Shown here: in pieces, positions 1,920 through 34,646 of the stretch | Numbering within the stretch: position 1 is the first letter of the stretch | How the letters are laid out: each line of letters opens with the position of its first letter | Origin: Bradyrhizobiaceae bacterium | GTDB lineage: Bacteria; Pseudomonadota; Alphaproteobacteria; Rhizobiales; Xanthobacteraceae | Length of the DNA: 34,646 bases | Assembly (NCBI GenBank): GCA_947481635.1 | Contig: CANKHJ010000029.1 | Location: 1 to 34,646, forward strand | Direction of reading: 5' to 3' | Made by a program: the position numbers and the translations under genes | The notes under the pieces: generated by a model | Databases searched by the model: none | What the model was told of the DNA's origin: nothing | What the model saw: only the letters and a program-made list of their open reading frames with translations

Positions 1920-2010
1920 GGTTCACCCGGAGCAGTGTGTCGACTGACAACCACACGGACGAACCGACGCGACCACATGGGCCGCGCGAGGATCGTCGGG
2001 GTTCTCAGGA

Positions 2011-2029
2011 GCGCCGCATTCGGCGGCGC
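2011..2029. repeat. Short GC-rich inverted repeat
   Basis: GCGCCGC at 2011-2017 and GCGGCGC at 2023-2029 form a perfect 7-bp stem with loop ATTCG. It lies in the spacer between the GIY-YIG gene (ending at 2177) and the start of the MFS gene, both on the minus strand. There is no U-tract, so an intrinsic terminator is not supported; a structured 3' UTR or incidental hairpin is possible. Confidence 0.35.
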
Positions 2030-2176
2030 CGCGAGGAACAGAGCTTCCGTGACATAGCAGGCATGACACGGAAGGGCTTGGGCCTACCCAGACCAAGCCA
2101 GCCTTTTCGACATGCCAAAATAACTTCGGTTGCGAAGCGGTGCAACCTGCTTTGCGGCGGATGGTCGCGCCCCGAA

Positions 2177-2461: not shown

Positions 2462-2524
2462 CGTCCCCACACCGCGTTGACCTTTACGGATCAATTGCCG
2501 ATCCGGGCAACAAGAACGGTGTGT

Positions 2525-3100: not shown

Positions 3101-3137
3101 CGCCCGAGTTTGTCCCGGTAATCATCCCAATCACGGT

Positions 3138-3266
3138 CGTCACCCCCCGCGAAAAGCGGGGGGTCCAGTATTCCGTGCTCCATCGATAGGTCGCGGAATA
3201 CTTGATGCCCCGCTGGAGCCTGTCATCGGGCGGCGCGTTCGCGGCGACCCGTTGGCGGGGCATGAC
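3138..3266. repeat. Family II palindromic repeat, copy 1
   Basis: The segment starts with a short hairpin (CCCCCCGCGAAAAGCGGGGGG), runs through AGTATTCCG, a central ATCGAT and CGGAATACT, and continues to a GGCGGGGCATGACA end. The AGTATTCCG/CGGAATACT arms pair. The copy at 30681-30770 shares the same order: hairpin, (T)CCAGTA, central CTATCGATAG, and a mirror-image end. It fills the gap between the convergent HPF-like and L,D-transpeptidase genes. The right half of this copy is more diverged and longer than that of copy 2. Confidence 0.7.
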
Positions 3267-3325
3267 AATCGAGAGAGTTGCGAGCTTAAGCGAGATTGAT
3301 TCGTTTCAATCCCGGCGGAGCGCGT

Positions 3326-4924: not shown

Positions 4925-5190
4925 CCTGGAGATGCCCCCGCGCCTGGAATTAATAACCGTTAGCCTTAAGGACCGATGATCGCAAGCCGCGCGACCCCGT
5001 CAGCGGTTAGAGCATGCGTATGGTGAACGCCCGGTAAATTGAAACCGATCAAGGGCTTGCACCAATCCCACGGTCGCGGTGGAGATGACCCTCGCATTCC
5101 CAGCCCGACCCGGAAACGCTGGCCCAAGACTTGGGAGAGATCAAGGCAAGGTCTGGAACTTGGTTGATGTTCCCGTGCCCCGGGCAGCGC
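4925..5190. other. Intergenic leader of the L,D-transpeptidase gene
   Basis: This unannotated stretch lies between the L,D-transpeptidase start and a palindromic repeat. Part of it is less GC-rich than the genes, especially around 4950-4980 (ATTAATAACCGTTAGCCTTAAGG, read in pieces), which would suit a promoter firing leftward. I see no convincing -35/-10 pair, RNA gene or coding frame. Confidence 0.4.
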
Positions 5191-5296
5191 CGTCATTCCG
5201 GGGCGCGCGACAGCGCGAAGCCCGGAATCCATATCCAAGCACCGACCTCGCGTCTGGATTCCAGGTTCGCACCTGCGGTGCGCCCCGGAATGACGG
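5191..5296. repeat. Family I palindromic repeat, copy A
   Basis: The outer arms are CGTCATTCCGGGGCGCGC at the left and GTGCGCCCCGGAATGACGG at the right. Inner arms CCCGGAATCCA and TCTGGATTCCAGG also pair, giving a long interrupted hairpin of about 106 nt. The same architecture recurs at 11876-11980, 17456-17564 and 33118-33243. It starts just beyond the accA stop (5302 on the minus strand, 5 nt away). Confidence 0.9.
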
Positions 5297-5301
5297 CCTT
5301 G

Positions 5302-6258
5302 TCACCCGATATTGCGGCCGATGGCCAGGAATTTCTGGCGCCGCTGCTGCCGAATCGCCGCCGGACTGAGGCCGTCGAACTCGGCCAAGGCGTTGGCGAT
5401 GGCCTCGCCGGTCGAGACGATGGCGGCGGGCGGGTTGCGATGGGCGCCGCCGATCGGCTCGGTGATGATCTGGTCGATGATGTTGTATTTGGCGAGGTCT
5501 TCGGCGGTGATCTTCATGTTGGTTGCCGCCTCCTGCGCCTTGGTGCTGTCGTGCCACAGGATCGAGGCTGCGCCTTCCGGCGAGATCACGCTGTAGATCG
5601 CGTGTTCCAGCATCAGCACCCGGCTTGCGGTCGCGATCGCGATCGCGCCGCCGGAGCCGCCTTCGCCCAGAATCACCGCGACATTCGGCACGCTGAGATT
5701 GAGGCAGGCGTCCGTCGAGCGCGCAATCGCCTCAGCCTGGCCGCGCTCCTCCGCGCCGATGCCGGGATAGGCGCCAGCGGTATCGACCAGCGCGATCACC
5801 GGAATCGAGAAACGGTCGGCCATTTCCATCAGCCGCACCGCCTTGCGGTAGCCTTCGGGCTTGGCCATGCCGAAATTATGCTTGAGGCGCCCCTCGGTGG
5901 TGGAGCCCTTTTCCTGGCCGATGACGCAGACGCTGGCGCCGCGGAACCGGCCGAAGCCGCCCACCACGGCGTCATCGTCGCCGAATTTGCGGTCGCCCTG
6001 CAGCGACACGAAGTCGGTGATCAGTCCGGCGACATAGTCGAGGCAATGCGGGCGCTGCGGATGGCGCGCGACCTGGGTCTTTTGCCATGGGGTGAGGCTG
6101 GAATAGAGGTCGCGCAGCGCAACCGCGGCCTTGGTCTCGAGCCGCGAGATATCCTCCTCGATCGCGACCGGGTTCTCGCCCGACTGCATGGCCCGCAATT
6201 CTTCCACCTTGGCCTCGAGCTCGGCCACCGGCTTTTCAAAGTCGAGATAAGTGCGCAT
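5302..6258 (-). CDS. accA: Acetyl-CoA carboxylase carboxyltransferase subunit alpha
   Basis: This 318-residue protein matches AccA in full length (usually about 315-325). It starts MRTYLDFEKPVAELEAKVEE, the typical N-terminal helix, and contains GDRKFGDDDAVVGGFGRF, RLMEMADRF, DTAGAYPGIGAEERGQAEA and GEGGSGGAIAIA, which build the crotonase-fold carboxyltransferase site. With AccD it forms the alpha2beta2 complex that transfers carboxyl from biotin-BCCP to acetyl-CoA, giving malonyl-CoA for fatty acid synthesis. The zinc finger is absent, as expected, because it belongs to AccD, which is not in this window. accA follows xerD on the same strand after about 120 nt. A palindromic repeat begins 5 nt after its stop. 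Confidence 0.96.
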   Translation of the reverse strand: MRTYLDFEKPVAELEAKVEELRAMQSGENPVAIEEDISRLETKAAVALRDLYSSLTPWQKTQVARHPQRPHCLDYVAGLITDFVSLQGDRKFGDDDAVVGGFGRFRGASVCVIGQEKGSTTEGRLKHNFGMAKPEGYRKAVRLMEMADRFSIPVIALVDTAGAYPGIGAEERGQAEAIARSTDACLNLSVPNVAVILGEGGSGGAIAIATASRVLMLEHAIYSVISPEGAASILWHDSTKAQEAATNMKITAEDLAKYNIIDQIITEPIGGAHRNPPAAIVSTGEAIANALAEFDGLSPAAIRQQRRQKFLAIGRNIG

Positions 6259-6377
6259 CCGAGCCTAGATGGGGGTGTGTTCGTCAAAATTGAATGAGAG
6301 CGGCGAAACTGGCCTTTGCGATGACGACAAGTCAAGGCGCGGGGGCGGGATGGGTTGTTCCCAGCCGGTGGGGTCGA

Positions 6378-7328
6378 TCAGGTATCGGTCAGCGGGTGCA
6401 GGTCGCGCACCAGGCTTTTCAGCCGTTCTTCCAGTACATGGGTGTAGATTTGCGTGGTCGAAATGTCGGCGTGGCCGAGCAGTGTCTGCACCACGCGCAG
6501 GTCGGCGCCGTTATGGAGCAGGTGACTGGCGAAGGCGTGCCGCAGCACATGCGGGCTGACATTGCGCGCGGCGATTCCGGCCATCGCGGCGAGATCCTTC
6601 AATTCGCGCGCGAAATGCTGCCGCGACAGGTATCCGCTTTCGCCGAATGATGGGAACAGCCATTTCGAGGGCTTCGCATCGCCGGCTTGCGCCAGCAGTG
6701 CGAGATAGTCGGCCATGGCGCGTTTCGCGGCGTCGTTGAGCGGCACCAGCCGCTCCTTGCCGCCTTTGCCGCGCACCGTGAGCATCTGCGCCCGTCCGGT
6801 CGCGGCCGAGCGTGGCAGCGCCACCAGTTCGGAGACGCGCAACCCGGTCGCGTAAAGCGTCTCGAGCAGGCAGGCGAGCCGCGCCGCGCGCAGCCGCTGC
6901 GCCGGTGACGCGGCCGGCGCGGCCATCGCGACGCGCGCTTCCTTCAGCAGCGTATCGACCTGCCCGATGCTCAGGACCTTGGGGAGGCCGCGGCCGCGTT
7001 TCGGCCCTTCGATCACCGCCGCCGGATCGTCGCCGCGCCGGTTCTCCGAATACAGGAAGCGATAGAGCTGGCGGATGGCAGACAATTTGCGCGCGACGGT
7101 GGTGGTCTTGAAGCCGCGCGCGGCCATTTCGCCAAGATAGCCGCGGATATCCTGGGTCGCGGCGGCCGCGATCGTGCCGCCGGTCGCGGTCAAGGCCGCG
7201 GCGAAATCATCGAGGTCGCGCCGGTATGCGTCGAGCGTGTTCTTCCCGGCGCCGCGTTCGGCCGCGAGCATGTCGAGAAACAGCGCGATCAGCGTCTCGT
7301 CGGTGTGTTGCCGCGCCGGAGCTGCCAT
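6378..7328 (-). CDS. xerD: Site-specific tyrosine recombinase XerD
   Basis: The 316-residue protein has an N-terminal SAM-like core-binding domain (about residues 8-100) and a C-terminal catalytic domain. All catalytic residues are visible: Arg in ATGLRVSELV, Lys in RGKGGKERLVPL, His-x-x-Arg in HVLRHAFASHLL, and His plus the nucleophilic Tyr in LGHADISTTQIYTHV. XerD acts with XerC at dif to resolve chromosome dimers. Assignment to XerD rather than XerC or a phage integrase rests on length, the N-terminal ALFLDMLAAERGAGKNTL pattern and position beside accA and near aroKB, an arrangement I recall from related genomes. A 48-codon membrane-protein gene ends 7 nt upstream on the same strand, suggesting co-transcription. 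Confidence 0.88.
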   Translation of the reverse strand: MAAPARQHTDETLIALFLDMLAAERGAGKNTLDAYRRDLDDFAAALTATGGTIAAAATQDIRGYLGEMAARGFKTTTVARKLSAIRQLYRFLYSENRRGDDPAAVIEGPKRGRGLPKVLSIGQVDTLLKEARVAMAAPAASPAQRLRAARLACLLETLYATGLRVSELVALPRSAATGRAQMLTVRGKGGKERLVPLNDAAKRAMADYLALLAQAGDAKPSKWLFPSFGESGYLSRQHFARELKDLAAMAGIAARNVSPHVLRHAFASHLLHNGADLRVVQTLLGHADISTTQIYTHVLEERLKSLVRDLHPLTDT

Positions 7329-7335
7329 CGCTGCC

Positions 7336-7482
7336 TCAGCGTTTCATGAAACGGTCGGGCGGCACTGGGACCGTGATGTCGCGCGGCTTCGGTTCGAACC
7401 AGGTCGCCAGCGCAAACATCCCGCCATAGACGACGCCGCCCAGGACGCCCACGATCAGGAGAAATCGGAACAAACTCGGCAT
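7336..7482 (-). CDS. Small single-pass membrane protein of unknown function
   Basis: The 48-residue product begins MPSLFRFLLIVGVLGGVVYGG, a single hydrophobic helix of about 20 residues, followed by FALATWFEPKPRDITVPVPPD, a polar Pro-rich tail ending RFMKR. The ATG at 7482 was chosen because the frame upstream is not protein-like. I recognise similar tiny proteins upstream of xerD in related genomes but know no function. The stop lies 7 nt before the xerD start, so the two are probably one transcript. The start faces aroKB divergently across a 193-nt spacer. Confidence 0.7.
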   Translation of the reverse strand: MPSLFRFLLIVGVLGGVVYGGMFALATWFEPKPRDITVPVPPDRFMKR

Positions 7483-7675
7483 GATGGGGACCGGTCCGCT
7501 CCGGGTAAGCTCATGACCGCATGTTCGACGGCCGAGACAGACATTGCGCCGGAACAAGCTCAGGTGACGGGCCGAGTAGCACCATGTTCGCGTCGGACTG
7601 GCAAGAGGCGGCGGTTTGGTCGTTGTCTCGGCCGCATCTTTGTGGAACTTATGCTGCCGGGCAAGGACCTCATTA

Positions 7676-9432
<1,757 letters not shown>

Positions 9433-9436
<4 letters not shown>

Positions 9437-10710
9437 GCGCCGCCGAGTGGTTCACGCTGCTCGGCATTGTCCTTTGTTTGATCGCCGTTGCGTCGCTGTG
9501 GTGGAGCGAGGCGACGTTGACTCTTGCCGCGCGCGCCAGCATCGCCCGGCTTGAGAAGCAGGGCAATGCGCGTGCGAAAACCGTGAATCGCCTGCTGGCG
9601 GGGCAAGAGACGCTGATCCGCGTGCTGATGGCCGGCCGCGTGGTCGCCATCGTGATGGCCGCCGCACTGGCGTCCGCCAGTCTGCATGCGCGGTTCGGCG
9701 CGTCCGGCGTCGTGTTGGCGATGGTGGCGACGGCGATCGTCATCGTATTCGTGTGCGTGTTGACGACCGCCGTGAGCGTGACCGAGCGCGCGACGCTCGC
9801 CGCTGCCACCCCGGTCCATCTGCTGGTGCGGCTGATCGGCCCGGTGCTGGTGCCGTTTGAGATTACGGCGCGCTGGCTGCTCGGCCTCGCCGGCATTCGC
9901 GTCGCCGGCGACCTGCCCGTATTGACCAGCGACGCGTTGCGCGGTGGCTCCGATCATGTCCGGCGCGGCAACGACATGGAGAAACAGAACCGCGACATGC
10001 TTGGCGGCCTGCTCGAACTGCGCGAACTCACCGTGTCCGACGTGATGATCCATCGCACCGAGATGGTCACCATCAATGCCGGCGAGGCCGTGGCGGACGT
10101 GGTGCGCGCCATGCTCACCGCGCCGGTGACGCGCGTGCCACTCTGGCTCGGCTCGCCGGAGAATATCGTCGGCATCCTCCACGCCAAGGATCTGCTGCGC
10201 GCGATACAGAATGCGCGCGGCGATCTCGATAAGCTCGACATCACCGCGATCGCACGGCCGCCCTGGTTCGTGCCCGACATCCGTCCGCTCGACGAGCAGT
10301 TGCGCGCGTTCCGCCGCCGCCGCACGCCGTTCGCGCTGGTGGTCGACGAGTATGGCGAGGTGATGGGTCTCGTTACACTCGAAGACATCATCGAGGAGAT
10401 CGTCGGCGAGATCACCGACGAACATGACCGCGAACTCACCGGCGTGCGTCCGCAGCCGGACGGCTCGGTGGTGGTGCATGGCGGCGTGCCGATCCGCGAT
10501 CTCAACCGCACCATGGATTGGCAATTGCCCGACGAGGAGGCCACCACGGTGGCCGGCCTCGTGATCCACGAGGCACAGTCGATCCCGGAGCCCGGCCAGA
10601 GCTTCACCTTCCACGGCTTCCGCTTCCGCGTGCTCCGCCGCAACCGCAACCGCATCACCGCGCTGCGCATCACGCCGCTGCTGCGACTGGCGCAAGCCAA
10701 GGCGAGCTGA
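9433..10710 (+). CDS. HlyC/CorC-family membrane protein (CNNM, CBS pair, CorC_HlyC domains)
   Basis: The 425-residue protein has a CNNM (DUF21) membrane domain in about the first 160 residues, with helices near 5-25, 60-85 and 92-115. Two CBS domains follow (about 205-325; SDVMIHRTEMVTINAGEAVADV and FALVVDEYGEVMGLVTLEDI read as parts). A C-terminal CorC_HlyC domain (about 340-420) contains VVVHGGVPIRDLNRTMDW. Family members are linked to Mg2+/Co2+ export or homeostasis, with CBS domains sensing Mg-ATP; older haemolysin labels are misleading. Its ATG overlaps the aroKB stop in ATGA, implying translational coupling. The link with aroB is common in this bacterial group from memory, but a functional reason is unknown. 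Confidence 0.9.
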
Positions 10711-10795
10711 CTCTATGTGCTGTCACCTTCTCACAAAACACACCGCCGTCACGCCCGCCCGGCCATGATGAGGAGGTGTTAAGGGGCAAGCGACG

Positions 10796-11095
10796 CTACG
10801 TCGCTACCGGAACCCGCTTGGGCTGCGACTCCTCGCCCGGTGCACCGGCGTGAATGGCCAGCGCGTGAACGCCGCCGGCCAGCTCATCAGCCAGGATTCC
10901 ATTAACCAGGCGATGGCGTTCGAGCCGGGTCTTCCCTACAAAGGCCGCAGATACGATATAGACCCTGAAATGGGTCTCGCCGCCGGGCCGGGCGCCGGCA
11001 TGTCCCGCATGCTTGCTGGATTCGTCCTCAACCTCGAGAATCTCGGGCGCGAAAGCGGCGGTTAATTTCGTCGCGATGACATCTTTGGTTCGCAT
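10796..11095 (-). CDS. BolA family protein
   Basis: The 99-residue protein starts MRTKDVIATKLTAAF and contains ESSKHAGHAG, the usual loop of BolA proteins, then FRVYIVSAAFVGKTRLERHR and LVNGILADELAGGVHALAI, the conserved beta-alpha-beta core with RHR(L/R)V. BolA proteins pair with monothiol glutaredoxins and take part in iron-sulfur trafficking; some bind DNA and affect morphology. The ATG at 11095 was chosen over an in-frame site 12 codons upstream because homology begins there. It converges with the CNNM gene (85-nt gap) and diverges from the dnaJ-like gene (127-nt gap). Confidence 0.92.
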   Translation of the reverse strand: MRTKDVIATKLTAAFAPEILEVEDESSKHAGHAGARPGGETHFRVYIVSAAFVGKTRLERHRLVNGILADELAGGVHALAIHAGAPGEESQPKRVPVAT

Positions 11096-11222
11096 GCCGC
11101 CCGCATAGCGAGAGGGATATGCCGTGGTCAATGGTGCGTTTTACGAATTTCGTCGCGGAATGGGCGTGTTGCGTCTGTCAAGACTTGAAGGTTGGGACGC
11201 GAAGTCCGCATAGTCATCGGTC

Positions 11223-11867
11223 ATGAAAAACGATTCATCTGACTCACCGCTATTTGACGGCATCCGGGTCAAGCCGTCGAAGGACCGCCGGCTGCGCAAG
11301 CCGATCGAGGCCGCGTGCGAATGGCCAGGCTGCAAGGCCGAGGGCGGCCATCGTGCGCCGAAGGGCCGCGAGGAGAAGCAATACTGGAACTTCTGCCTGC
11401 CGCACGCGCGCGACTACAACGCGTCGTATAATTATTTCTCCGGCATGACCGTTGCCGAGATCGCGGCCTGGCAGAAGGACGCCATCATCGGCCATCGCCC
11501 GACCTGGAAGATGGGGCAGGGCGGCACCGGCGCCGCGACCGAGCGCTCCGGCGCCGCGCGCTTCCGCCGCGATCCCAACGATCCGTTCGGCCTGTTCCGC
11601 GAGATGGGCGGAGCGGGAGCCAAGGCGCGGGCCAAAGCCAAGGCCGAGTCGGCTGGCGACGGCGGCGTGATCCGCAATGCGCAGAAAAAGGCGCTCGAAA
11701 CCCTCGGCTTCGAAGGCGGCGCGACCTCCGCCGAGGTGAAGGCCCGGTTCAAGGATCTGGTGAAGAAGCATCACCCCGATGCCAATGGCGGCGACCGCTC
11801 CACCGAAGACCGGCTGCGCGAGATCATCCAATCCTACAAATACCTGAAGTCGATCGGCTTCGGCTGA
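11223..11867 (+). CDS. J-domain protein (DnaJ-like molecular chaperone)
   Basis: The 214-residue protein has a C-terminal J-domain (about residues 155-213) with the diagnostic KKHHPDANGGD tripeptide HPD that stimulates DnaK ATPase. The N-terminal half contains CEWPGCKAEGGHRAP and WNFCLPHARDYN, a Cys/His pattern that may bind zinc, and a Gly/Arg/Ala-rich middle. A C-terminal J-domain differs from classical DnaJ, where it is N-terminal, so this is a specialised partner and not the general chaperone. It lies divergent to bolA. A palindromic repeat starts 8 nt after its stop. In related genomes I recall it directly preceding cobS; here an efflux pair lies between. Confidence 0.86.
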   Translation: MKNDSSDSPLFDGIRVKPSKDRRLRKPIEAACEWPGCKAEGGHRAPKGREEKQYWNFCLPHARDYNASYNYFSGMTVAEIAAWQKDAIIGHRPTWKMGQGGTGAATERSGAARFRRDPNDPFGLFREMGGAGAKARAKAKAESAGDGGVIRNAQKKALETLGFEGGATSAEVKARFKDLVKKHHPDANGGDRSTEDRLREIIQSYKYLKSIGFG

Positions 11868-11875
11868 ACACGCAC

Positions 11876-11980
11876 CGTCATTCCGGGGCGATGCGAAGCA
11901 TCGAACCCGGAATCCAGACACAAGCACTGATGACGGGTCTGGATTCCGGGGTCGCGCTTTCGCGCGCCCCGGAATGACGG
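11876..11980. repeat. Family I palindromic repeat, copy B
   Basis: Left arm CGTCATTCCGGGGCGATGCG, then AACCCGGAATCCAGA, centre, TCTGGATTCCGGGGT, and right arm GCGCGCCCCGGAATGACGG. It begins 8 nt after the dnaJ-like stop. A short extra fragment, GGTCATTCCGCG, at about 11990-12001 looks like a partial third arm. The remaining spacer up to 12106 probably holds the RND operon promoter, but I could not choose a site. Confidence 0.9.
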
Positions 11981-12106
11981 GTCGAGTGCGGTCATTCCGC
12001 GCAGGCTTAGCCGCCGCTCCGCTCTATTTTCATCTCTGACCTGAACCATTTTGCGGATGGGGCGTCATTGACGAGCCGGGTCTGCGCGCCGGCGCGCAAC
12101 GTTGAG

Positions 12107-13201
12107 ATGGTCATGAAAACGCCTGTGATCGCCGCCCTGGCCCTGGTCGCGGCGGTGGTCGTTGTGGTCGGCGTGGTGAAATATCGCGGCGGAGCCGCTG
12201 CGCAGAATCCGGTCCAGACCAAGGCCGGGGCGTCAAAGGCCGCCCGCGTGCCGGTCGAGACCGCAAAGGCGCGCGCGTCGAAAATCACGTCCGACATCCG
12301 CGCCATAGGCAGCCTGCAATCCGATGAATCGGTGCGGATCGCCCCCGAGATTGCCGGACGGCTCGCCGAGATTCTGTTCTCGGAAGGCGACACGGTGAAG
12401 CAGGGCGATGTGTTGCTGAAATTCGACGATTCCCTGGTTCGGGCCGAAGTCGTCCAGGCGCAGGCGCGCCAGGAACTCGCCAAGGCCAACCTCGGTCGCG
12501 CCACCAGGCTTGCCAGCACCGGTGCTGGAACCACCCAGGATCGCGACGAGGCGACCGCCGAATTCGCGCAATCGCAGGCCGCGATCGAGCTTGCGAGCGT
12601 GCGCCAATCGAAACACGCGGTCACAGCGCCGTTCGCCGGCGTGGTTGGCATCCGCAACGTCTCGGTGGGTGCCTTCGTCGCGATCGGCACCGAGATCGTC
12701 AATCTCGAAAAGATCGATGCCTTGAAGGTCGACTTCAAAGTGCCGGAGATCTTCCTCGCCAAGATCGCGGTCGGCCAGACCATCGAGGTCATCGTCGATG
12801 CCTATCCCGGCCGCACCTTTCCCGGCACTATCTATGCGATCGATCCGATGGTCGATGTGAATGGCCGCGCGATCCAGCTTCGGGCGCGCTTGCCGAATCC
12901 GGACCGCGTGCTGCGGCCAGGTTTATTCGCCCGCATCGTGATCAAGGGTCTGAGCGAGGAAACCGCGGTGTTCGTGCCGGAGAGCGCGCTGGTGCCGCGC
13001 GGCGGCGAGAGCTTCGTCTATCGCATCGATGGCGACAAGGCGGTCGAGACCAAGGTGCGGCTTGGCGAACGCAAGGGCGGCGAGGTCGCGATCCTCGAAG
13101 GCATCATGCCGGATGCGGTCGTCGTCACCGCCGGTCATCAGCGGCTGCGCGATGGCACGCTGGTAGAAGTGGTGCCGCCGCCGCGCGCCGCGAACGGGTG
13201 A
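12107..13201 (+). CDS. RND efflux periplasmic adaptor (membrane fusion protein)
   Basis: The product (364 residues from the ATG at 12107; MKTP at 12113 is equally possible) begins with a single hydrophobic anchor (VIAALALVAAVVVVVGVVKY) and continues as a HlyD/AcrA-type adaptor. RIAPEIAGRLAEILFSEGDTVKQGDVLLKFD is the lipoyl half-motif (given here as one visible block, about residues 70-100), a short alpha-hairpin follows, and HAVTAPFAGVVGIRNVSVG is the second lipoyl half. It should bridge the RND pump and an outer-membrane channel. An in-frame TTG at 12068 was judged too far upstream. The pump gene starts 9 nt downstream, so the two form an operon. No TolC-like gene is present in the window. 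Confidence 0.9.
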   Translation: MVMKTPVIAALALVAAVVVVVGVVKYRGGAAAQNPVQTKAGASKAARVPVETAKARASKITSDIRAIGSLQSDESVRIAPEIAGRLAEILFSEGDTVKQGDVLLKFDDSLVRAEVVQAQARQELAKANLGRATRLASTGAGTTQDRDEATAEFAQSQAAIELASVRQSKHAVTAPFAGVVGIRNVSVGAFVAIGTEIVNLEKIDALKVDFKVPEIFLAKIAVGQTIEVIVDAYPGRTFPGTIYAIDPMVDVNGRAIQLRARLPNPDRVLRPGLFARIVIKGLSEETAVFVPESALVPRGGESFVYRIDGDKAVETKVRLGERKGGEVAILEGIMPDAVVVTAGHQRLRDGTLVEVVPPPRAANG

Positions 13202-13210
13202 TCCGAGCCC

Positions 13211-16200
13211 ATGTTTGAATTCTGCATCCGGCGGCCGGTCTTCGCGACGGTCCTCAGTCTGATCATGATCCTGGTCGGCGTCGTCTCGTATCAGCGGCTC
13301 AGCGTGCGCGAATATCCCAATATCGACGAGCCGACCGTCTCGGTCTCGACATCTTATCCTGGCGCTTCGGCTTCGATCATCGAAAGCCAGGTTACGCAGG
13401 TGCTGGAAGGCTCGATCGCCGGCATCGAGGGGATCGACGTTCTCGAATCGACCAGCCGCGCCGAGACTAGCCGCATCACGGTGCGGTTCCGGCTCGGCAC
13501 CGATCCCGACGTCGCGGCGAGCGACGTGCGCGACCGCGTCAGCCGCGTGCGCCGCACGCTGCCCGATGAGATCGACGAACCGCGGATCGCCAAGGTCGAG
13601 GCCGATGCGCAGGCGATCATGTATCTGGTATTCCGCAGCGAGAATTTGGGCGCGCTCGAACTCACCGACTATGTCGACCGTTTCGTCGTCGACCAGTTGA
13701 AGAACCTGAACGGCATCGCCGACGTCACGATCTTCGGCGAACGCCGCTACGCGATGCGGGTGTGGATCGATCGCGAACGGCTCGCCGCCTACAATTTGAC
13801 GATCCAGGATATTGAAAGCGCGTTGCGCGCGCAGAATGTCGAATTGCCCTCCGGCCGGATCGAAAGCCGGGACCCTGAGTTCACGGTGCTGTCGCGCACC
13901 GGCCTCGCGACGCCCGAGCAATTCGGCAATGTCGTCGTGAAGCTGGCCGACGGCTATCAGGTCCGGCTGCGCGAAGTCGCGCGCGTCGAACTCGGCGCCG
14001 CGGATGAGCGGCGCAACAACAGCTACAACGGCGGGCCGGGCATCATCGTCGGCATCATCAAGCAGGCGACAGCCAATCCGCTCGATGTGTCCAAAGGCGT
14101 GAGCACGGTATTGCCCGCGATCAGTGCATCGCTGCCGCAAGGGCTCACCGTCGAGATCGGCAATGACAGCGCGGTGTTCATCGATCGCTCGATCAACGCG
14201 GTGCTCCATTCGATCATCGAGGCGATCATCCTGGTCGTGATCGTCATCGTGTTCTTCCTGCGCTCGTTCCGGGCCTCGATCATTCCGGTGATCACGATCC
14301 CGATTTCGCTGGTGACCACGTTCGCGTTGATGTACGCGCTCGGTTTCAGCGTCAACACATTGACGCTCTTGGCGATGGTGCTGGCGATCGGGCTGGTCGT
14401 GGACGATGCGATCGTCGTGCTGGAGAATGTCTACCGTTACATCGAGGAGGGGATGAAGCCGGTCGCCGCCGCGATCAAGGGAACGCGCGAGATCGGCTTT
14501 GCCGTCATCGCCATGACGCTGACGCTCGCGGCGGTCTATGCCCCGGTCGCGTTCGCGCCGGGCCGCACCGGCCGGCTGTTTCTGGAATTCGCGCTCACAT
14601 TGGCCGGCGCGGTGGTGGTGTCCGGATTCGTCGCGCTGACGCTGACGCCGATGATGTGCTCGAAGCTGCTGCGGCACGAGCCCAATCCGGGACGGATCGC
14701 CTCCGCGCTCGACCGCGGCTTCACCGCATTCGAGACCGGCTATCGCCGCTGGCTGACCGCATCGCTGCGGTTTCGTCCGGCGGTGCTCGGCGTCGCGCTG
14801 CTGGTGGCCGCATCAAGCGTCGTGTTTTTTTACGCGCTGCCGTCGGAGTTGGCGCCGATCGAGGACCGCGGCGTGGTCAATGTGCGCGGCTCGGCGCCCG
14901 AGGGCTCCACCGTCGGTTACACCAGTCGCTACGCCAATCAGGTCGACGCCATTCTGGCCCAGGTGCCCGAAGTCGCATCGCGCCTGACCATTATCGGCTC
15001 GCCCGAAGTCTCCGACTTCATGTCGATCGGCCGGCTGAAGGATTGGGAGGAGCGCGACCGCAAGCAGCAGGCGCTCACCGCCGAGATCGGCCCAAAACTC
15101 CGTCGCATCGCCGGCGTGAATGCATTTGCCAGCGATTCACCCTCGCTCGGCGTGCGTGGCTCCTCGCGGCCGGTCGAGGTGGTGATCCAGACCTCTGGGA
15201 CCTACGAAGAATTGCAGCAGCATGTCGATAAGGTGCTGGCGCGCATCGAAGGCAGCCCGATCCTCACCAATGTCGACACCGACCTGAAGCTCAACAAACC
15301 ACAATTCACCATCGAGCTGGACCGCGCCAAGGTCGCCGACCTCGGCCTCGACGTCTCGGCGGTTGGGCGCACGCTCGAGACGCTGCTCGGCGGTCGCCAG
15401 GTGACGCGGTTCGAAATGAATGGCGAGCAGTTCGACGTCTATGTGCAGCTTGCCGCCGAGGACCGCGCGTCGCCGACGACACTCTCGACGATTTTCCTGC
15501 GCGGCGCGCAGAACGAAATGATCCAGCTCTCGAACGTGGTGCAGGTGAAGGAATCGGTCGCGCCGAAGGAGCTGAAACGCTTTAACCAGCTGCGCGCCGT
15601 GACGATTTCCGCGAATATCGCGCCGGGCTACGCCGTCGGTGACGGCCTTGCCGCGCTCGAAGCCGCAGCGAAAGAAGTTCTCCCGGCCGGTATCCGTACC
15701 GACGTCAGCGGCCAAAGCCGCGAATTCCGCGCCGCGGGACAGAGCCTGATCTTCGTGTTCGTACTGGCGCTCGGCTTCATCTATCTGGTGCTGGCGGCCC
15801 AGTTCGAGAGCTTCCGCGACCCGGTCATCATCCTGCTGACCGTTCCGCTGTCGATGACCGGGGCGCTCGCCGCGCTCTATTTCGCCGGCGGCACGCTCAA
15901 CGTGTTTTCGCAGATCGGACTGGTCACGCTGGTCGGCCTGATCACCAAGCACGGCATTCTGATCGTCGAATTCGCCAATCAGCAGCAGATCGCGGGCCGC
16001 AATCGCGTCGAAGCGGTGATCGAAGCCGCCGGCTTGCGGCTGCGCCCGATCCTGATGACCACCGGGGCGATGGTGCTCGGCGCGCTGCCGCTCGCGCTGG
16101 CCAGCGGCGCCGGCGCCGAAAGCCGGCAGCAGATCGGCTGGGTCATCGTCGGTGGCATGACGCTGGGGACGCTGCTGACACTGTTCGTGGTGCCGACGGT

Positions 16201-16291
16201 CTACAGCTTCATGGGGCAGCGGCACCGGGCCGCCGAAGCCGACGACCTGGAGGAGGAGCCGGCGGCGCACGCGCCTGCTTCCGGGGCGTAA
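13211..16291 (+). CDS. RND multidrug efflux transporter permease (AcrB/MexB-like superfamily)
   Basis: The 1026-residue length and the repeated architecture (TM1, a large periplasmic loop, TM2-7, a second loop, TM8-12) match hydrophobe/amphiphile-efflux RND pumps. The start MFEFCIRRPVFATVLS is typical. The proton relay in TM4 is seen as VVDDAIVVLENVYRY, and the TM10 lysine region as GLITKHGILIVEFANQ. Periplasmic porter domains include SYPGASASIIESQVTQVLE and SSVGGK-free funnel segments. It probably exports lipophilic drugs or detergents with proton influx, partnered by the adaptor encoded 9 nt upstream. Substrate is unknown. A 14-nt perfect palindrome begins right after the stop, before cobS. 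Confidence 0.93.
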   Translation: MFEFCIRRPVFATVLSLIMILVGVVSYQRLSVREYPNIDEPTVSVSTSYPGASASIIESQVTQVLEGSIAGIEGIDVLESTSRAETSRITVRFRLGTDPDVAASDVRDRVSRVRRTLPDEIDEPRIAKVEADAQAIMYLVFRSENLGALELTDYVDRFVVDQLKNLNGIADVTIFGERRYAMRVWIDRERLAAYNLTIQDIESALRAQNVELPSGRIESRDPEFTVLSRTGLATPEQFGNVVVKLADGYQVRLREVARVELGAADERRNNSYNGGPGIIVGIIKQATANPLDVSKGVSTVLPAISASLPQGLTVEIGNDSAVFIDRSINAVLHSIIEAIILVVIVIVFFLRSFRASIIPVITIPISLVTTFALMYALGFSVNTLTLLAMVLAIGLVVDDAIVVLENVYRYIEEGMKPVAAAIKGTREIGFAVIAMTLTLAAVYAPVAFAPGRTGRLFLEFALTLAGAVVVSGFVALTLTPMMCSKLLRHEPNPGRIASALDRGFTAFETGYRRWLTASLRFRPAVLGVALLVAASSVVFFYALPSELAPIEDRGVVNVRGSAPEGSTVGYTSRYANQVDAILAQVPEVASRLTIIGSPEVSDFMSIGRLKDWEERDRKQQALTAEIGPKLRRIAGVNAFASDSPSLGVRGSSRPVEVVIQTSGTYEELQQHVDKVLARIEGSPILTNVDTDLKLNKPQFTIELDRAKVADLGLDVSAVGRTLETLLGGRQVTRFEMNGEQFDVYVQLAAEDRASPTTLSTIFLRGAQNEMIQLSNVVQVKESVAPKELKRFNQLRAVTISANIAPGYAVGDGLAALEAAAKEVLPAGIRTDVSGQSREFRAAGQSLIFVFVLALGFIYLVLAAQFESFRDPVIILLTVPLSMTGALAALYFAGGTLNVFSQIGLVTLVGLITKHGILIVEFANQQQIAGRNRVEAVIEAAGLRLRPILMTTGAMVLGALPLALASGAGAESRQQIGWVIVGGMTLGTLLTLFVVPTVYSFMGQRHRAAEADDLEEEPAAHAPASGA

Positions 16292-16305
16292 CCGCCGGCC
16301 GGCGG
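16292..16305. repeat. Perfect 14-bp GC palindrome after the RND stop codon
   Basis: CCGCCGGCCGGCGG lies immediately after the TAA at 16289-16291. It could fold as a short stem or bind a protein dimer, but has no U-tract. In the same 172-nt spacer before cobS, ATATCTG occurs twice (16320-16326 and 16330-16336) separated by CAC; this may be a binding site or chance. I see no cobalamin riboswitch here. Confidence 0.45.
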
Positions 16306-16463
16306 CCCTGGACCGGGCGATATCTGCACATATCTGATATTCCGAGGCTTTTCCGGCGGCGGGGGCGGCTTTCGCTCGCCGCAGGCTTTCTGCTAAGTTG
16401 CCTTGGAATCCGACCCTTACCGCCGAAAGATCGGGGCTCGCGTTCCGCGCCCACGGAGGATCA

Positions 16464-17450
16464 ATGACTGCCGCAGTGCAAGAAAAGGCCGGCCTGCCCG
16501 ACATGAAGGTGTCGGTGCGTCAGGTTTTCGGTATCGAGAGCGACATGGACGTGGCGGCCTATTCGGAAACGACGGAGCACGTCCCGGAGGTCGACCCGGA
16601 CTATCTGTTCGATCGCCCGACGACGCTCGCGATCCTGGCCGGTTTCGCTAAGAACCGCCGTGTCATGATCACCGGCTATCACGGCACCGGCAAGTCGACC
16701 CATGTCGAGCAGGTTGCGGCGCGGCTGAACTGGCCCTGCGTGCGCGTCAACCTCGACAGCCACATCAGTCGTATCGATCTGATCGGCAAGGATGCGATCG
16801 TGATTCGGGACGGCATGCAGGTCACCGAATTCCGCGACGGTATCCTGCCCTGGGCGCTGCAGAACAATGTCGCGCTGTGCTTCGACGAATATGACGCCGG
16901 CCGTCCGGACGTGATGTTCGTGATCCAGCGCGTGCTCGAATTGTCCGGCAAGCTGACGCTGCTCGACCAGAACAAGGTGATCAAGCCGCATCCGGCATTC
17001 CGCCTGTTCTCCACCGCCAACACGGTGGGCCTCGGCGATACCTCGGGCCTCTATCACGGCACGCAGCAGATCAACCAGGGCCAGATGGACCGTTGGTCGA
17101 TCGTCACGACGCTGAATTATCTGCCGCATGACAACGAGGTGAACATTGTCCTCGCCAAGGCACGGCACTACCGCACCGATGCCGGCCGCGACATCGTCAA
17201 CAAGATGGTGCGCGTCGCCGACCTGACGCGCAACGCCTTCATGAATGGCGACATCTCGACGGTGATGAGCCCGCGTACCGTGATCACCTGGGCTGAGAAT
17301 GCCGACATCTTCCGGGATGTCGGCTTCGCGTTCCGCGTGACCTTCCTGAACAAATGCGACGAACTGGAGCGCCCGATCATCGCGGAGTTCTATCAGCGCA
17401 GCTTCGGCCAGGAATTGCCGGAAAGCGCGGTCAACGTCGCATTGAGCTGA
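16464..17450 (+). CDS. cobS: Aerobic cobaltochelatase subunit CobS
   Basis: The 328-residue AAA+ ATPase matches CobS throughout. Walker [10 protein letters not shown] and Walker [14 protein letters not shown] are clear, followed by [22 protein letters not shown] (sensor and arginine region) and [13 protein letters not shown]. CobS with CobT forms the MoxR-type chaperone ring that drives CobN to insert cobalt into hydrogenobyrinic acid a,c-diamide in aerobic cobalamin synthesis. The ATG at 16464 follows GGAGGA by 3-4 nt (a rather tight but strong site). CobN is not in the window. A palindromic repeat begins 5 nt after the stop and fills the gap to cobT. Confidence 0.96.
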
Positions 17451-27804: not shown

Positions 27805-28140
27805 ATGACCTACGTCGTCGTCGAGAATTGTATTAAGTGCAAGTACATGGACTGCGTCGAGGTGTGTCCGGTGGACTGCTTCTACGAAGGTGAAAACATG
27901 CTCGTCATCCACCCGGATGAGTGCATCGATTGTGGTGTCTGCGAGCCGGAATGCCCGGCCGAGGCGATCAAGCCGGATAGCGAGCCGGGCCTGGAGAAGT
28001 GGCTCAAGGTCAACGCCGACTTCGTCAAGGTCTGGCCCAACATCACGATCAAGCGGGAAGGTCCCGAGGACGGCAAGGAATGGGACGGCAAGCCCGGCAA
28101 AGAGGCGCTGCTGTCGCCGGAGCCGGGCGAGGGCGACTAA
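27805..28140 (+). CDS. fdxA: 7Fe ferredoxin FdxA
   Basis: The 111-residue protein starts [17 protein letters not shown]. The first cluster motif [17 protein letters not shown] and the second [12 protein letters not shown] give the arrangement of the Azotobacter FdI-type ferredoxin with one [3Fe-4S] and one [4Fe-4S] cluster; the C-terminal extension of about 50 residues ([14 protein letters not shown]) is typical too. It carries electrons at low potential; the partner is unknown. The ATG at 27805 was chosen over a TTG one codon earlier. It precedes carD on the same strand, a neighbourhood I recall across Hyphomicrobiales, but a promoter lies between them. Confidence 0.94.
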
Positions 28141-28243
28141 CCGGCGCCGGCCGCTGCCGCCGGAATTCCCTTGAAAGTTAACCCTCCGGTCATATTTAGC
28201 CCCCGGATGCCCTGGAATACCACGTTTGCGGTGCCGTAAGGCT

Positions 28244-28271
28244 TTGATTTCGGCCGAAAATGTGGTATATG
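28244..28271 (+). promoter_or_regulatory. Possible carD promoter
   Basis: TTGATT (28244-28249) and TATATG (28266-28271) are 16 nt apart. Predicted transcription start is about 28278-28280, giving a leader of about 100 nt before the GTG of carD. Match is moderate. Confidence 0.45.
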
Positions 28272-28305
28272 ACGGTGAAATGAGCATAACCGCCGTGCCC
28301 GAGAC

Positions 28306-28330
28306 GCTCCCAGAAGGGGGCTTATTTTTT
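28306..28330 (+). terminator. Terminator-like hairpin in the carD leader (possible attenuator)
   Basis: GCTCCC (28306-28311), loop AGAA, and GGGGGC (28316-28321) form a 6-bp stem with one U-G pair, followed by TTATTTTTT. This is the form of an intrinsic terminator, placed between the promoter-like sequence and carD. A 28-codon frame from ATG 28280 to TGA 28366 runs through it. Confidence 0.5.
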
Positions 28331-28382
28331 CGGGTGTTCCAAGGGGATCGTCAACCAGGGGCGTGAGTTCCACGCAACGACA

Positions 28383-29159
28383 GTGGCCGGAAAAGCGCGT
28401 CAAAAGTCGAAAAAGACCTCGAAGGCCTCTGCCGGCGTAACTCGGCGGGCCAAGAAAGCGTCCCCTGGCGCAAGCCGGAGGACCTCGCATGCGTCGCGCG
28501 GACCAACCCCCCGTCGCGCCGCTCCCGTGTCCAAAAGCGCCGCCCGGCCCACAAAGCCGGAGGCGGCAGGAGCATCCCCTGGCATGACGACCAGCAAAAA
28601 GACCACTCAACGACAAGGCTTCAAGACTCAGGAATTCATCGTTTACCCGGCTCACGGCGTCGGCCAGATTCTGGCCATCGAGGAGCAGGAGATTGCGGGC
28701 GCCAAGCTTGAGCTGTTCGTCATCAACTTCATCAAGGACAAGATGACGCTGCGCGTCCCGACGGCGAAGATCGCCTCGGTCGGCATGCGCAAGCTCGCCG
28801 AAGGCCCGATCGTCAAGCGGGCGCTTGAGACCCTGAAGGGCCGTGCCCGCGTCAAGCGCACCATGTGGTCGCGCCGCGCGCAGGAATACGAGGCCAAGAT
28901 CAATTCCGGCGATATCGTCGCGATCGCGGAGGTCGTGCGCGACCTGTTCCGTTCCGACAGCCAGCCGGAGCAGTCCTATAGCGAGCGGCAGCTTTATGAA
29001 GCCGCGCTCGATCGCCTGTCGCGCGAAATCGCGGCGGTGCAGCGCGTCACCGAGACCGAAGCCGTCAAGGAGATCGAGGCCGCACTCGCCAAGGGCCCGC
29101 GCCGCGGACCGAAGCCGGCCGACGAAGCCGAGCCGGCCGTCGAGGACGAAGCGGCTTAG
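28383..29159 (+). CDS. carD: CarD-family transcription regulator
   Basis: The conserved part starts near MTTSKKTTQRQGFKTQEFIVYPAHGVGQI: the CarD/TRCF RNA polymerase-interacting Tudor-like domain, with LFVINFIKDKMTLRVP, then a helical C-terminal DNA-binding domain containing RAQEYEAKINSGD and RQLYEAALDRLSREIAAV. CarD binds the RNA polymerase beta subunit and stabilises open promoter complexes. A GTG at 28383 gives 258 residues with an Arg/Lys/Ser/Ala-rich leader of 67 residues; an ATG at 28584 gives 191, nearer usual length. The frame is open and compositionally basic upstream, so I keep the long form but rate the start as uncertain. The gene ends at a strong terminator. Confidence 0.88.
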   Translation: MAGKARQKSKKTSKASAGVTRRAKKASPGASRRTSHASRGPTPRRAAPVSKSAARPTKPEAAGASPGMTTSKKTTQRQGFKTQEFIVYPAHGVGQILAIEEQEIAGAKLELFVINFIKDKMTLRVPTAKIASVGMRKLAEGPIVKRALETLKGRARVKRTMWSRRAQEYEAKINSGDIVAIAEVVRDLFRSDSQPEQSYSERQLYEAALDRLSREIAAVQRVTETEAVKEIEAALAKGPRRGPKPADEAEPAVEDEAA

Positions 29160-29180
29160 CCGCAAAACATTTTGGTTGCG

Positions 29181-29216
29181 AAAAGCCCGGCGAAAGCTGG
29201 GCTTTTTGCTTTTTTA
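29181..29216 (+). terminator. Intrinsic terminator after carD
   Basis: AAAAGCCCGGC (29181-29191) pairs with GCTGGGCTTTT (29196-29206), one G-U pair, GAAA tetraloop, followed by a T-rich run to 29216. A textbook rho-independent terminator 21 nt after the carD stop. Confidence 0.9.
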
Positions 29217-29286
29217 CCTCTTCCGCTCGCGGGGGAGAGGTAACCGAATCCGCCTGTAGATTCGCGCTGCCGACAGGAATCCTCTC

Positions 29287-30360
29287 ATGCGTACCCATAA
29301 GATCGCAGCCATCCCCGGCGACGGCATCGGGACCGAAGTCATCGCCGCCGGGCTCGAAGTGCTCGCAGCCTGCGCCAAGCGCGACGGCGGCTTCGTGCTG
29401 GATGTCACGCATTTCGACTGGGGCTCGGATTATTACAAAACCCACGGCGTGATGATGCCGGCGAACGGCGTCGCGGCGATGCGCGCGTATGACGCGATCT
29501 ATTTCGGTGCGGTGGGTGCACCCGGCGTGCCCGATCACGTCAGCTTGTGGGGCCTGCGGCTCGCGATCTGCCAGGGGCTCGACCAATACGCCAATGTGCG
29601 CCCGACGCGGGTGCTGCCCGGCATCGAGAGCCCGCTGCGCCACGTCAACGGCGGCGAGCTCGACTGGGTGATCGTGCGTGAGAATTCCGAGGGCGAATAT
29701 TCCGGCCAGGGCGGGCGCGTGCATCGCGGCCTGCCCGAGGAGGTCGGCACCGAGGTGGCGATCTTCACCCGCACGGGTGTGACGCGCATCATGCGCTTCG
29801 CGTTCGAGACCGCGCGGGCGCGCCCGCGCAAGTTCCTGACCATCGTCACCAAGTCGAATGCGCAGCGCCACGGCATGGTGATGTGGGACGAGATCGCCGC
29901 CGAAGTGGCCGCAGAATTTCCCGACGTAACCTCCGACAAGATGCTGGTCGACGCGATGACCATGCGCATGACGCTGCATCCGCAATCGCTCGACACCATC
30001 GTCGCCACCAATCTCCACGCCGATATCCTGTCCGATCTCGCCGCCGCTTTGGCCGGTTCGCTCGGCATCGCACCGACCGCGAATCTCAATCCTGAACGCA
30101 AGACGCCCTCGATGTTCGAGCCGATCCACGGCTCGGCCTTCGACATCGCGGGCAAGGGTATTGCCAATCCGATCGGCACCTTCTGGACCGGCGTCATGAT
30201 GCTGGAGCATCTCGGCGAACGTGACGCGGCGGCGCGGTTGATGGGTGCAATCGAGCGTGTCACCGCCGACAAGGCGTTGCACACCCCGGATCTCGGCGGC
30301 GTCGCCACGACGCGGCAGGTCACCGATGCTATGTTGCGCGCGCTGGGTTGGAACCAATAG
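29287..30360 (+). CDS. Tartrate/D-malate dehydrogenase (isocitrate/isopropylmalate dehydrogenase family)
   Basis: The 357-residue protein starts MRTHKIAAIPGDGIGTEVIAA and has the family's substrate and metal residues: DWVIVRENSEGEYSGQGGR, KSNAQRHGMVMWD, VDAMTMRMTLHPQSLDTIVATNLHADILSD in successive blocks, and EPIHGSAFDIAGKGIANP. The ENSEGEYSGQGGR loop and SDYY-KTHGVMMP segment are typical of the TtuC/DmlA branch, which oxidatively decarboxylates D-malate or tartrate with NAD and Mn/Mg. Length matches DmlA (about 361). Exact substrate within the branch is not fixed by sequence. It is 70 nt downstream of the carD terminator and 41 nt before a small membrane-protein gene. Confidence 0.88.
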   Translation: MRTHKIAAIPGDGIGTEVIAAGLEVLAACAKRDGGFVLDVTHFDWGSDYYKTHGVMMPANGVAAMRAYDAIYFGAVGAPGVPDHVSLWGLRLAICQGLDQYANVRPTRVLPGIESPLRHVNGGELDWVIVRENSEGEYSGQGGRVHRGLPEEVGTEVAIFTRTGVTRIMRFAFETARARPRKFLTIVTKSNAQRHGMVMWDEIAAEVAAEFPDVTSDKMLVDAMTMRMTLHPQSLDTIVATNLHADILSDLAAALAGSLGIAPTANLNPERKTPSMFEPIHGSAFDIAGKGIANPIGTFWTGVMMLEHLGERDAAARLMGAIERVTADKALHTPDLGGVATTRQVTDAMLRALGWNQ

Positions 30361-33246: not shown

Positions 33247-34218
33247 TTACGCCACCTTCTTCCTCTTCCCAGCCTTCGCGGGCGCGGCCTTCGCTTGAGC
33301 CTTCGGCGCAGCCGCGGCCTGTTTGGCGGCCTCTTTGCTCTTGCCGCCCTTGATCGGGAATTTGAATTGCGGCGACTTGCGCTGCTCTTCCTGTTTGGCG
33401 GGCGAAACCTTGCGCGCCTTGCCGGCTGGCGCCTGCTTGTCGTCGGAGATGCTGCGCCGGAGCGCGTCCATCAGGTTCACGACATTGCTGGCCGGTGCCG
33501 CGGGCTTCGCCACCGCGACCGGTTGCCCGGCCTGCTTCTGCTTCAGCATCTCGACCACGGCTTCCTCGTAGCGGTCGACGAATTTCGCTGGCTCGAAGTC
33601 GGCCGCCTTGCTGTCGAGGATATGCTCCGCGAGCTGCAGCATGTCTTTCGGCACCTTCACGTCGGTGATGTCGCTGAAATAATCCTCGGCGTTGCGCAGT
33701 TCATAAGGATAGCGCAGCGTCGTGCCGAGCAACCCTTTGTCCCAGGCCTGCAGCATGATCACGCGCTCGCGCTTGGCCAGCACGACGCGCGCCAGCGCGA
33801 CCATGCTCTTGCCTTCCATCGCGTCGCGGATCACCGCAAACGCGTCCTGGCCGACCTGGTCGGTTGGCGCGATGTAATAGGGGCTGTCGAAATAGCGCTC
33901 GTCGATCTGCGCGCGCGGCACGAACGAGTCGATCTCGATGGTGTGATTGCTTTCGACCGCGACCGCGTCGAGCTCCTCGTCCTCGACCTGGATATAGGTG
34001 TTCTTCGCGACCTCGTAGCCCTTGACCTTGTCGGCCGCTTCCACCGGCTCGCGCGTCACGTCGTCGACGAGTTGCTGGCGCAGCCGGTTTCCGGTGCTCT
34101 TGTTGATCTGCCGGAACGCCACGCGTTCGCTCGATGACGCCGCGGTGTAGAGCGCGATCGGGCACGAAACCAGGGAGAGCTTGAGGTAGCCCTTCCAATA
34201 CGGACGAGGCGCGGGCAT
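33247..34218 (-). CDS. ku: Ku protein, bacterial non-homologous end joining
   Basis: The 323-residue protein starts PRPYWKGYLKLSLVSCPIALY, the hallmark of bacterial Ku, and contains RQQLVDDVTREPVEAADKVKGYE, DSPYYIAPTD and LLGTTLRYPYELRN. The core (about residues 1-260) forms the DNA-end-binding ring. The last about 70 residues are Lys/Ala/Pro-rich, as in Ku proteins whose basic tails bind DNA and recruit LigD. The ATG at 34218 has GGAG 5 nt upstream; a GTG two codons earlier is possible. LigD is not in the window. A family I repeat begins 3 nt after the stop. Confidence 0.94.
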   Translation of the reverse strand: MPAPRPYWKGYLKLSLVSCPIALYTAASSSERVAFRQINKSTGNRLRQQLVDDVTREPVEAADKVKGYEVAKNTYIQVEDEELDAVAVESNHTIEIDSFVPRAQIDERYFDSPYYIAPTDQVGQDAFAVIRDAMEGKSMVALARVVLAKRERVIMLQAWDKGLLGTTLRYPYELRNAEDYFSDITDVKVPKDMLQLAEHILDSKAADFEPAKFVDRYEEAVVEMLKQKQAGQPVAVAKPAAPASNVVNLMDALRRSISDDKQAPAGKARKVSPAKQEEQRKSPQFKFPIKGGKSKEAAKQAAAAPKAQAKAAPAKAGKRKKVA

Positions 34219-34410
34219 GAGCACTCCATACGCAACACAAAAACTGTCGCCTTAAGGATAAGTCGTGAGGCGGCAAGTGTGGAGTCTAACCACGTTTGAA
34301 TTAATAGACGTGCTAAACGCATGTTCCCGGATTGTTCGCGCTTGTATGCTTTGTCGCGAATGACCGACAAGCTGTTGTAGTTCGTGCGCCGCTTTACCGT
34401 TCCTGTGGAT

Positions 34411-34446: not shown

Positions 34447-34488
34447 GGCCCCGTAGCTCAGCTGGATAGAGCATTGGTTTCCTAAGCC
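34447..34488 (+). tRNA. tRNA-Arg(CCT) 5' half (fragment)
   Basis: The acceptor 5' strand GGCCCCG, TA, D-stem GCTC, D-loop AGCTGGATA, GAGC and an anticodon arm with TTCCTAA (anticodon CCT at 34481-34483) are all present. After AAGCC the sequence no longer folds: no variable loop, T-arm with TTCRA or 3' acceptor CGGGGCC follows. It is therefore a half gene, as left at an integration or rearrangement site, or a contig-edge artefact. Sequence beyond it is notably AT-richer. Confidence 0.65.
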
Positions 34489-34572
34489 GTAGCTCTTGCA
34501 AGCTAAATCTTTGAAATTTCTGATGCTCGCTGATTGCTAGGCATGCCGTAGGCATCCGGCAACAAAAACGCG

Positions 34573-34646
34573 CGACCCCGGCATGATTCTAACATGCGAC
34601 CCCCGCTTTAGGAAAGCGATGATCTATCCAGCTGAGCTACGGGGCC
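34573..34646 (-). tRNA. tRNA-Arg(CCT), full length but atypical
   Basis: On the minus strand 74 nt fold as a tRNA: acceptor GGCCCCG/CGGGGTC (one G-U pair), D-loop AGCTGGATA, anticodon arm TCGCT-TTCCTAA-AGCGG, variable loop GGGTC, T-arm GCATG-TTAGAAT-CATGC, discriminator G, no encoded CCA. Two features are unusual: the D-stem GCTC/GATC has a mismatch at 11-24, and the T-loop has A in place of the near-universal C56. A T-run follows at about 34562-34567. It could be a decaying copy. The 5' end coincides exactly with the window edge. Confidence 0.7.

Follow-up and report, generated by a model that had tools for sequence, protein, structure and literature searches.

Why do two tRNA-Arg(CCT) sequences face each other at the very end of a contig, and what has become of the host gene to which one of them belongs? 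The window analysed here, 34,646 nucleotides in length, is one entire contig (C29) of a 338-contig, 4.89-Mb draft genome (G000), so that it stops at the first base of the minus-strand tRNA. A first-pass annotation had described the plus copy as a 5' half forming an inverted repeat with the minus copy, and had proposed an integrative element with its attachment site in the anticodon region of the tRNA.

The host tRNA-Arg(CCT) gene is split between two contigs

33247 to 34224, minus strand: host flank gene for Ku, a protein of non-homologous end joining (TIGR02772 of NCBIfam at 280 bits against a cut-off of 150)
34447 to 34485, plus strand: 5' half of the interrupted tRNA-Arg(CCT) gene of the host, forming the host side of attL and ending with the anticodon loop
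34479 to 34485, plus strand: recombination core TTCCTAA, the 7-nt anticodon loop and the longest sequence common to attL (window) and attR (contig C149)

The Ku gene is the immediate left neighbour of the split tRNA site. The inverted repeat (34447-34485 and 34608-34646) spans 39 nt with 92% complementarity (BLAST E 3.2e-9 in a search within the window's own genome), and the first 24 nt of the two copies are identical, as the first-pass annotation had noted. ARAGORN and Rfam called a tRNA for the minus copy only and not for the plus copy. The missing host 3' half was found in the same draft on the minus strand of C149 (11447-11489), near the contig end, where it contains ACCAA, which pairs with the stem TTGGT of the window, and an encoded CCA. 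When 34447-34485 and C149:11447-11489 are joined at the anticodon loop, a perfect 77-nt tRNA-Arg(CCT) results, CCA included, with four stems that are all paired. This 3' half and the second copy of TTCCTAA, a repeat of the core having been expected further right, bear out the proposed use of the anticodon region as attachment site.

A relative (G014) with synteny to the window genes at 27.6-33.7 kb carries an intact tRNA-Arg(CCT) at the matching place (L083 7073-7149), and an intact gene is also present in G040 (L062), which shows partial synteny with the window's left genes; the remaining loci of the 12 compared gave no such match. With the genes of C149, the 12 loci gave a single weak match, in L088 at 30% identity. 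Of 40 relatives, G004 alone has a match to the SDR gene of C149, and there it lies on a different contig from the tRNA; the C149 genes do not adjoin tRNA-Arg(CCT) in the relatives checked. No single assembled contig of the draft joins C29 to C149. Both contigs break off close to the att sites, C29 at the first base of the element's tRNA (34646) and C149 about 154 bp into the element from its opposite end.

Beyond the core on the element side there is no tRNA continuation at attL or attR, and neither junction is called as a tRNA. With a recombination core of only 7 bp, the tRNA is rebuilt at neither junction; at attR this follows from the DNA preceding the C149 3' half, which is not tRNA. An ordinary island would instead rebuild the tRNA at its other end, and the second tRNA would be an unrelated pseudogene inside it. 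PMC4383910 describes rebuilding as the common arrangement (Islander), and it occurs at tRNA-Arg(CCG) in the same genome and, apparently, in the viral record G324. However, the non-tRNA DNA before the C149 3' half and the failure to find an intact host copy in the draft make an ordinary island very unlikely here. The conventional element at tRNA-Arg(CCG) offers a contrast within one genome: that tRNA is intact on C113 (L081 10510-10583), and C201 (L080 83-1580) repeats 50 bp of its 3' part next to an integrase. The 50-bp core rebuilds tRNA-Arg(CCG), as opposed to the 7-bp core at tRNA-Arg(CCT).

The element carries its own tRNA-Arg(CCT)

34572 to 34646, minus strand: element-borne tRNA-Arg(CCT) without encoded CCA, with a C11-T24 mismatch and A56 (ARAGORN; Rfam, 49.4 bits)

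The minus copy lies 86 nt from the core, on the side of the element, and points towards the junction. Its full length, the 11-24 mismatch and the A at position 56 had all been correctly observed before. Two points can be added to the first reading, namely that the minus copy would be the element's replacement tRNA and that the host gene is not rebuilt. The element and host tRNAs differ at 8 of 74 positions (66/74 identical). Five of these differences lie in the anticodon stem, where pairing is kept in all, and the rest are T24, which causes the D-stem 11-24 mismatch, A56 and A59. All 17 distinct tRNA-Arg(CCT) from relatives (L051-L092) have G24 and C56, and all 17 encode the CCA that the element tRNA lacks; a paired D stem and C56 are also found in each of the five other element tRNAs compared. 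T24 and A56 may reflect a base-calling problem at the contig end or real decay.

Apart from the minus copy, the draft yielded no intact CCT tRNA. No other CCT tRNA is present among the 38 typed tRNA matches (Rfam/ARAGORN), and a pattern search of the draft with up to two mismatches yielded, beyond these two tRNA-Arg(CCT), only a CCG tRNA. The disrupted host gene is likewise single copy as far as the draft's tRNA list shows. However, tRNA-Asp, tRNA-Ile and tRNA-Arg(TCT) were not found among the 38 matches, and as the lack of tRNA-Asp and tRNA-Ile marks the list as incomplete, "sole copy" is valid for the assembly only.

By the established wobble rules, a cell that has tRNA-Arg(TCT) may be able to do without tRNA-Arg(CCT). 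The element tRNA could then be a decaying passenger in a split host gene, with tRNA-Arg(TCT) reading AGG and no compensation needed. Such decay would fit the change of two positions that are conserved in all 17 relatives' tRNAs and in a copy from the Baikal genome described below, an Rfam score that is the lowest of the 38 tRNA matches, and the presence of tRNA-Arg(TCT) in several relatives. On the other hand, the anticodon-stem changes all keep pairing, the Baikal copy is intact, and tRNA-Arg(TCT) was not seen in this assembly, with its incomplete tRNA list. We consider a mere passenger unlikely and hold it to be highly probable that an element split tRNA-Arg(CCT) at the anticodon loop without rebuilding it and brought a replacement tRNA-Arg(CCT) along. 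The replacement, changed at two conserved positions, may be weak, and its decay at T24 and A56 would be tolerable if tRNA-Arg(TCT) reads AGG.

The element end resembles an integrase attachment site

34486 to 34571, no strand: element end from the core to the putative replacement tRNA; not tRNA, with arm-type repeats and a layout like that of L232
34538 to 34555, plus strand: putative arm-type integrase sites, a motif pair of two TAGGCAT 11 bp apart

The spacer, which had been described as AT-richer, is moderately so (GC 0.45 for 34462-34547). The paired TAGGCAT motif was matched once in the window and never in 100 shuffles. A partner pair, also 11 bp apart, was found on the minus strand of C149 (L038) at 11611-11628 (0 in 200 shuffles), and the paired motif occurs a single time in each source. 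A split tRNA core flanked by TAGGCAT pairs has the look of the attP of a tyrosine integrase. Directly past the core, at 34487-34495, the element sequence CCGTAGCTC equals tRNA positions 5-13; this likeness may be due to chance or may go back to an earlier copy of a tRNA. Promoter and terminator scans gave nothing at the window end or in L232. A sigma-70 consensus scan found no promoter upstream of the tRNA in the Baikal relative, and the corresponding upstream region of the window lies past the contig end.

The first-pass annotation had also considered an inverted chimera, and the position of the inverted pair exactly at a contig end of a 338-contig draft would suit a chimera or fold-back produced in assembly. 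Yet a fold-back is hard to reconcile with eight differences between host and element copies or with the presence of the arm sites; moreover, a like element end occurs in another assembly (L232), and the layout recurs in IMG/VR contigs and in the genome of a Sphingomonas faeni isolate. A chimera is thus highly improbable. An interruption at the anticodon loop also brings to mind a group I intron, which is known within tRNA-Arg(CCT) in Agrobacterium. No intron family reached the gathering score in the window, in C149 or in five stretches of like-built elements, and a TTCCTAA core on both sides is unlike an intron, which leaves this explanation with next to no probability.

Search for the element body and integrase

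The body and integrase of the element were not located in the G000 assembly. A tyrosine integrase had been expected, and a PF00589 search gave five matches, none of them attributable to this element. The protein at C29:6426 is a XerC/XerD-type recombinase (NCBIfam), and the integrase on C201 is located at the tRNA-Arg(CCG) site. The two integrases of C20 and C254, like the integrase fragment of C113, may be linked to the element; no TAGGCAT was found near them save one single motif in C254, which was additionally inspected by ORF list and PHROGs (C20 and C113 by TAGGCAT only). The integrase of a complete viral element (G320) and an ORF of the Baikal genome as queries against G000 returned nothing convincing. 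With the far end of the element (the C149 tail), 3 of 296 family genomes were matched, being G000 itself and two weak cases, and in phage and plasmid collections no place covered 80% of the 200-nt query. A tRNA on a Methylorubrum megaplasmid (H27) was accompanied by no split copy when 1.2 kb was inspected by eye.

Similarly built elements in other genomes

A pattern for tRNA-Arg 5' halves gave 83 matches in 82 IMG/VR stretches. According to ARAGORN, 22 of these are not intact tRNAs, 18 with a CCT-type and four with a CCG-type loop. An inverted complete tRNA-Arg(CCT) lies 111-168 nt past the core in three of them (L131, L132 and L157, all CCT-type). When 21 of the records were scanned whole (that of L124 being left out), the only further matches over the cut-off were in G324, where an intact tRNA at the far end is apparently a rebuilt gene, and in G340, where the match is a tRNA-Thr. 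The L131 record (G320) holds a complete element of 29.0 kb on one contig, with the core CGGTTTCCTAA, attL, a tRNA at 652-728 on the minus strand, an integrase frame at 27976-29349, and attR at 29508 with the host 3' half.

Named genomes contributed 35 stretches, between 185 and 8000 nt long, one of which (L233) is an intact tRNA. Among the remaining 34, a different complete tRNA-Arg(CCT) is present in five (L207, L209, L213, L232 and L234), and L229 has a tRNA copy whose 5' half is identical and which may be a rebuilt gene. The L207 case is weak, its host 3' half not having been found by pattern. The split halves elsewhere are mostly without a replacement in the fetched stretch (19/22 in IMG/VR, 28/34 in genome contigs), which counts against the replacement reading.

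L232, from the Xanthobacteraceae MAG Baikal-deep-G39, has the same TAGGCAT arm motif and the same inverted tRNA, but with G24 and C56 (72/74 identical to the element tRNA of the window). Its host 3' half was not found by pattern with at most one mismatch, about 1.1 kb being covered beyond the tRNA. In Sphingomonas faeni MA-olki (L209), attL and the inverted tRNA are on one contig and attR on another; the split end reads like IMG/VR L157, and a single position of the T stem is left unpaired when the host tRNA halves are joined. A Hyphomicrobiales MAG (G342; L247, JAFKKO010000054.1, about 1667-16863) contains a complete 15.2-kb element between both host halves, with the core TTTCCTAA and the element tRNA in direct orientation. 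Its genes encode an Arm-DNA-bind_3 integrase, a primase, a C5 methylase, an HATPase, a Z1 protein that matches the PADLOC Helicase_II and MzaC profiles, and Vsr. No recognised phage structural genes were seen among the proteins scanned, and G342 has the appearance of a defence-type island more than that of a phage. Integrases are present in the like-built elements G320 and G342. In G344 (L234, JABDAT010000009.1, 4353-6800), the 2.4 kb between the host halves are what is left of a decayed element: part of an integrase, a third, incomplete tRNA at 5607 and a complete tRNA-Arg(CCT) that has been retained. Pattern searches of G000, G341, G342, G343 and G344 gave no further intact CCT tRNA.

Comparison with known systems

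The closest match to the C29/C149 locus appears to be tRNA-dependent lysogeny, which was shown genetically in mycobacteriophages (Guerrero-Bustamante and Hatfull 2024, PMC10865867). As described there, the host tRNA is not rebuilt, a tRNA of the same isotype is carried, and paired arm sites surround the core; the core is short in Fionnbharth, Cluster L, Mollymur and Gaia too (8-17 bp in their Table 2, 7 bp here). The targets of those actinobacteriophages are tRNA-Lys, -Ile2 or -Leu, whereas here it is tRNA-Arg(CCT), and the element tRNA is inverted, at a distance of about 75-170 nt from the core, in the window, L232, L132, L131 and L209. Unlike the phages with genetics, the present element is known from its sequence and is only putatively a phage. 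Its body lies outside the window, and its like-built relatives include IMG/VR contigs and the island G342; judging by them, the setting is not actinobacterial. The same paper states that the frequency of tRNA-dependent lysogeny outside actinobacteriophages needs further work.

Prophages of Sinorhizobium meliloti AK21 and RU11/001 are described from sequence as splitting tRNA-Leu(UAG) (PMC11476347), and by that description they share with the present element an alphaproteobacterial host, a central tRNA disruption and a replacement isoacceptor in the prophage, although the tRNA is another one and the likeness is one of description. The phiLM21-like prophages are reported in PMC12429752 not to show tRNA-dependent lysogeny. 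Lj965 of Lactobacillus johnsonii, a Firmicute prophage and in this unlike the element here, is said in PMC10865867 to leave its tRNA unrestored and to encode a cognate one; it, too, is likened by description. Islander-type islands (PMC4383910) also have their att site in a tRNA gene, with an anticodon-centred crossover in many, but are described as restoring the tRNA at one junction, here restored at neither. Judging by the title of a report by Castillo (2018), the integrative elements (ICEs) of Acidithiobacillus reportedly recombine at the tRNA anticodon stem/loop segment, which would be the same att site.

The phages HeidiAbel (Bas97; L238, PQ850606.1), MQ-4 (L094, ON853583.1), PPpW-3 (L093, AB775548.1) and Persinger (L239, MT613935.1) have a complete tRNA-Arg at a distance of about 120 nt from an anticodon stem-loop of tRNA-Arg(TCT) that stands alone, just ahead of the integrase. 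The phage tRNA was typed as TCT by ARAGORN in PPpW-3 and MQ-4, and by eye in HeidiAbel and Persinger. DNA of PT1, Alux-21 and in part Arya is similar to these phages. On this layout these phages are candidates for tRNA-dependent lysogeny. Against this, HeidiAbel, which requires restored O16 O-antigen in E. coli K-12, is reported to give clear plaques and no lysogens, its lifestyle being called enigmatic (PMC11990801), and PMC5754474 refers to the integrases of PPpW-3 and Arya as pseudogenes. The attP region of Bas97 had no megablast match in E. coli genomes, so no integrated copy was found.

Proposed mechanism and significance

We infer that a mobile element, by means of a tyrosine integrase, entered the anticodon loop of the only host tRNA-Arg(CCT) gene found in the draft. 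The sequence itself shows the split, with the 5' half remaining at attL (window 34447-34485) and the 3' half on C149 at attR, as well as the short core, the paired repeats as putative arm sites, and a complete tRNA-Arg(CCT) of the element, 86 bp inside attL and directed towards the junction. This tRNA would be expressed and make good the loss of the host tRNA, in the manner of tRNA-dependent lysogeny, provided that a replacement is needed at all; it probably keeps the decoding of the cell normal. Excision would restore the host gene and at once take away the element's copy.

No description of tRNA-Arg(CCT) replacement elements was found in the open-licence literature, and as the search was limited to that literature this absence is weak evidence. 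New are the target tRNA-Arg(CCT), a putative defence-type island that uses tRNA replacement, and a decayed remnant with a kept tRNA; the latter two go somewhat beyond known tRNA-dependent lysogeny. Replacement of a tRNA, shown recently in mycobacterial phages, is here extended to other bacteria. Worked tRNA-Arg(CCT) examples come from Sphingomonas faeni and from one MAG each of Xanthobacteraceae and Hyphomicrobiales, the Hyphomicrobiales case being a defence-type island and not an evident phage. Island finders that demand a rebuilt tRNA would probably miss such elements, and a simple search rule is a split anticodon-loop site with a nearby intact tRNA of the same isotype. The integrase fragment beside the kept tRNA in G344 suggests a route for the fixation of foreign tRNA genes. 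It is possible, although we would call it doubtful rather than probable, that the tRNA swap is a widespread lock-in of phages and non-phage, defence-carrying islands in Proteobacteria. Such elements could be lost only by exact excision, and their decay would leave the foreign tRNA as the sole copy, so that tRNA genes would be replaced by horizontal transfer.
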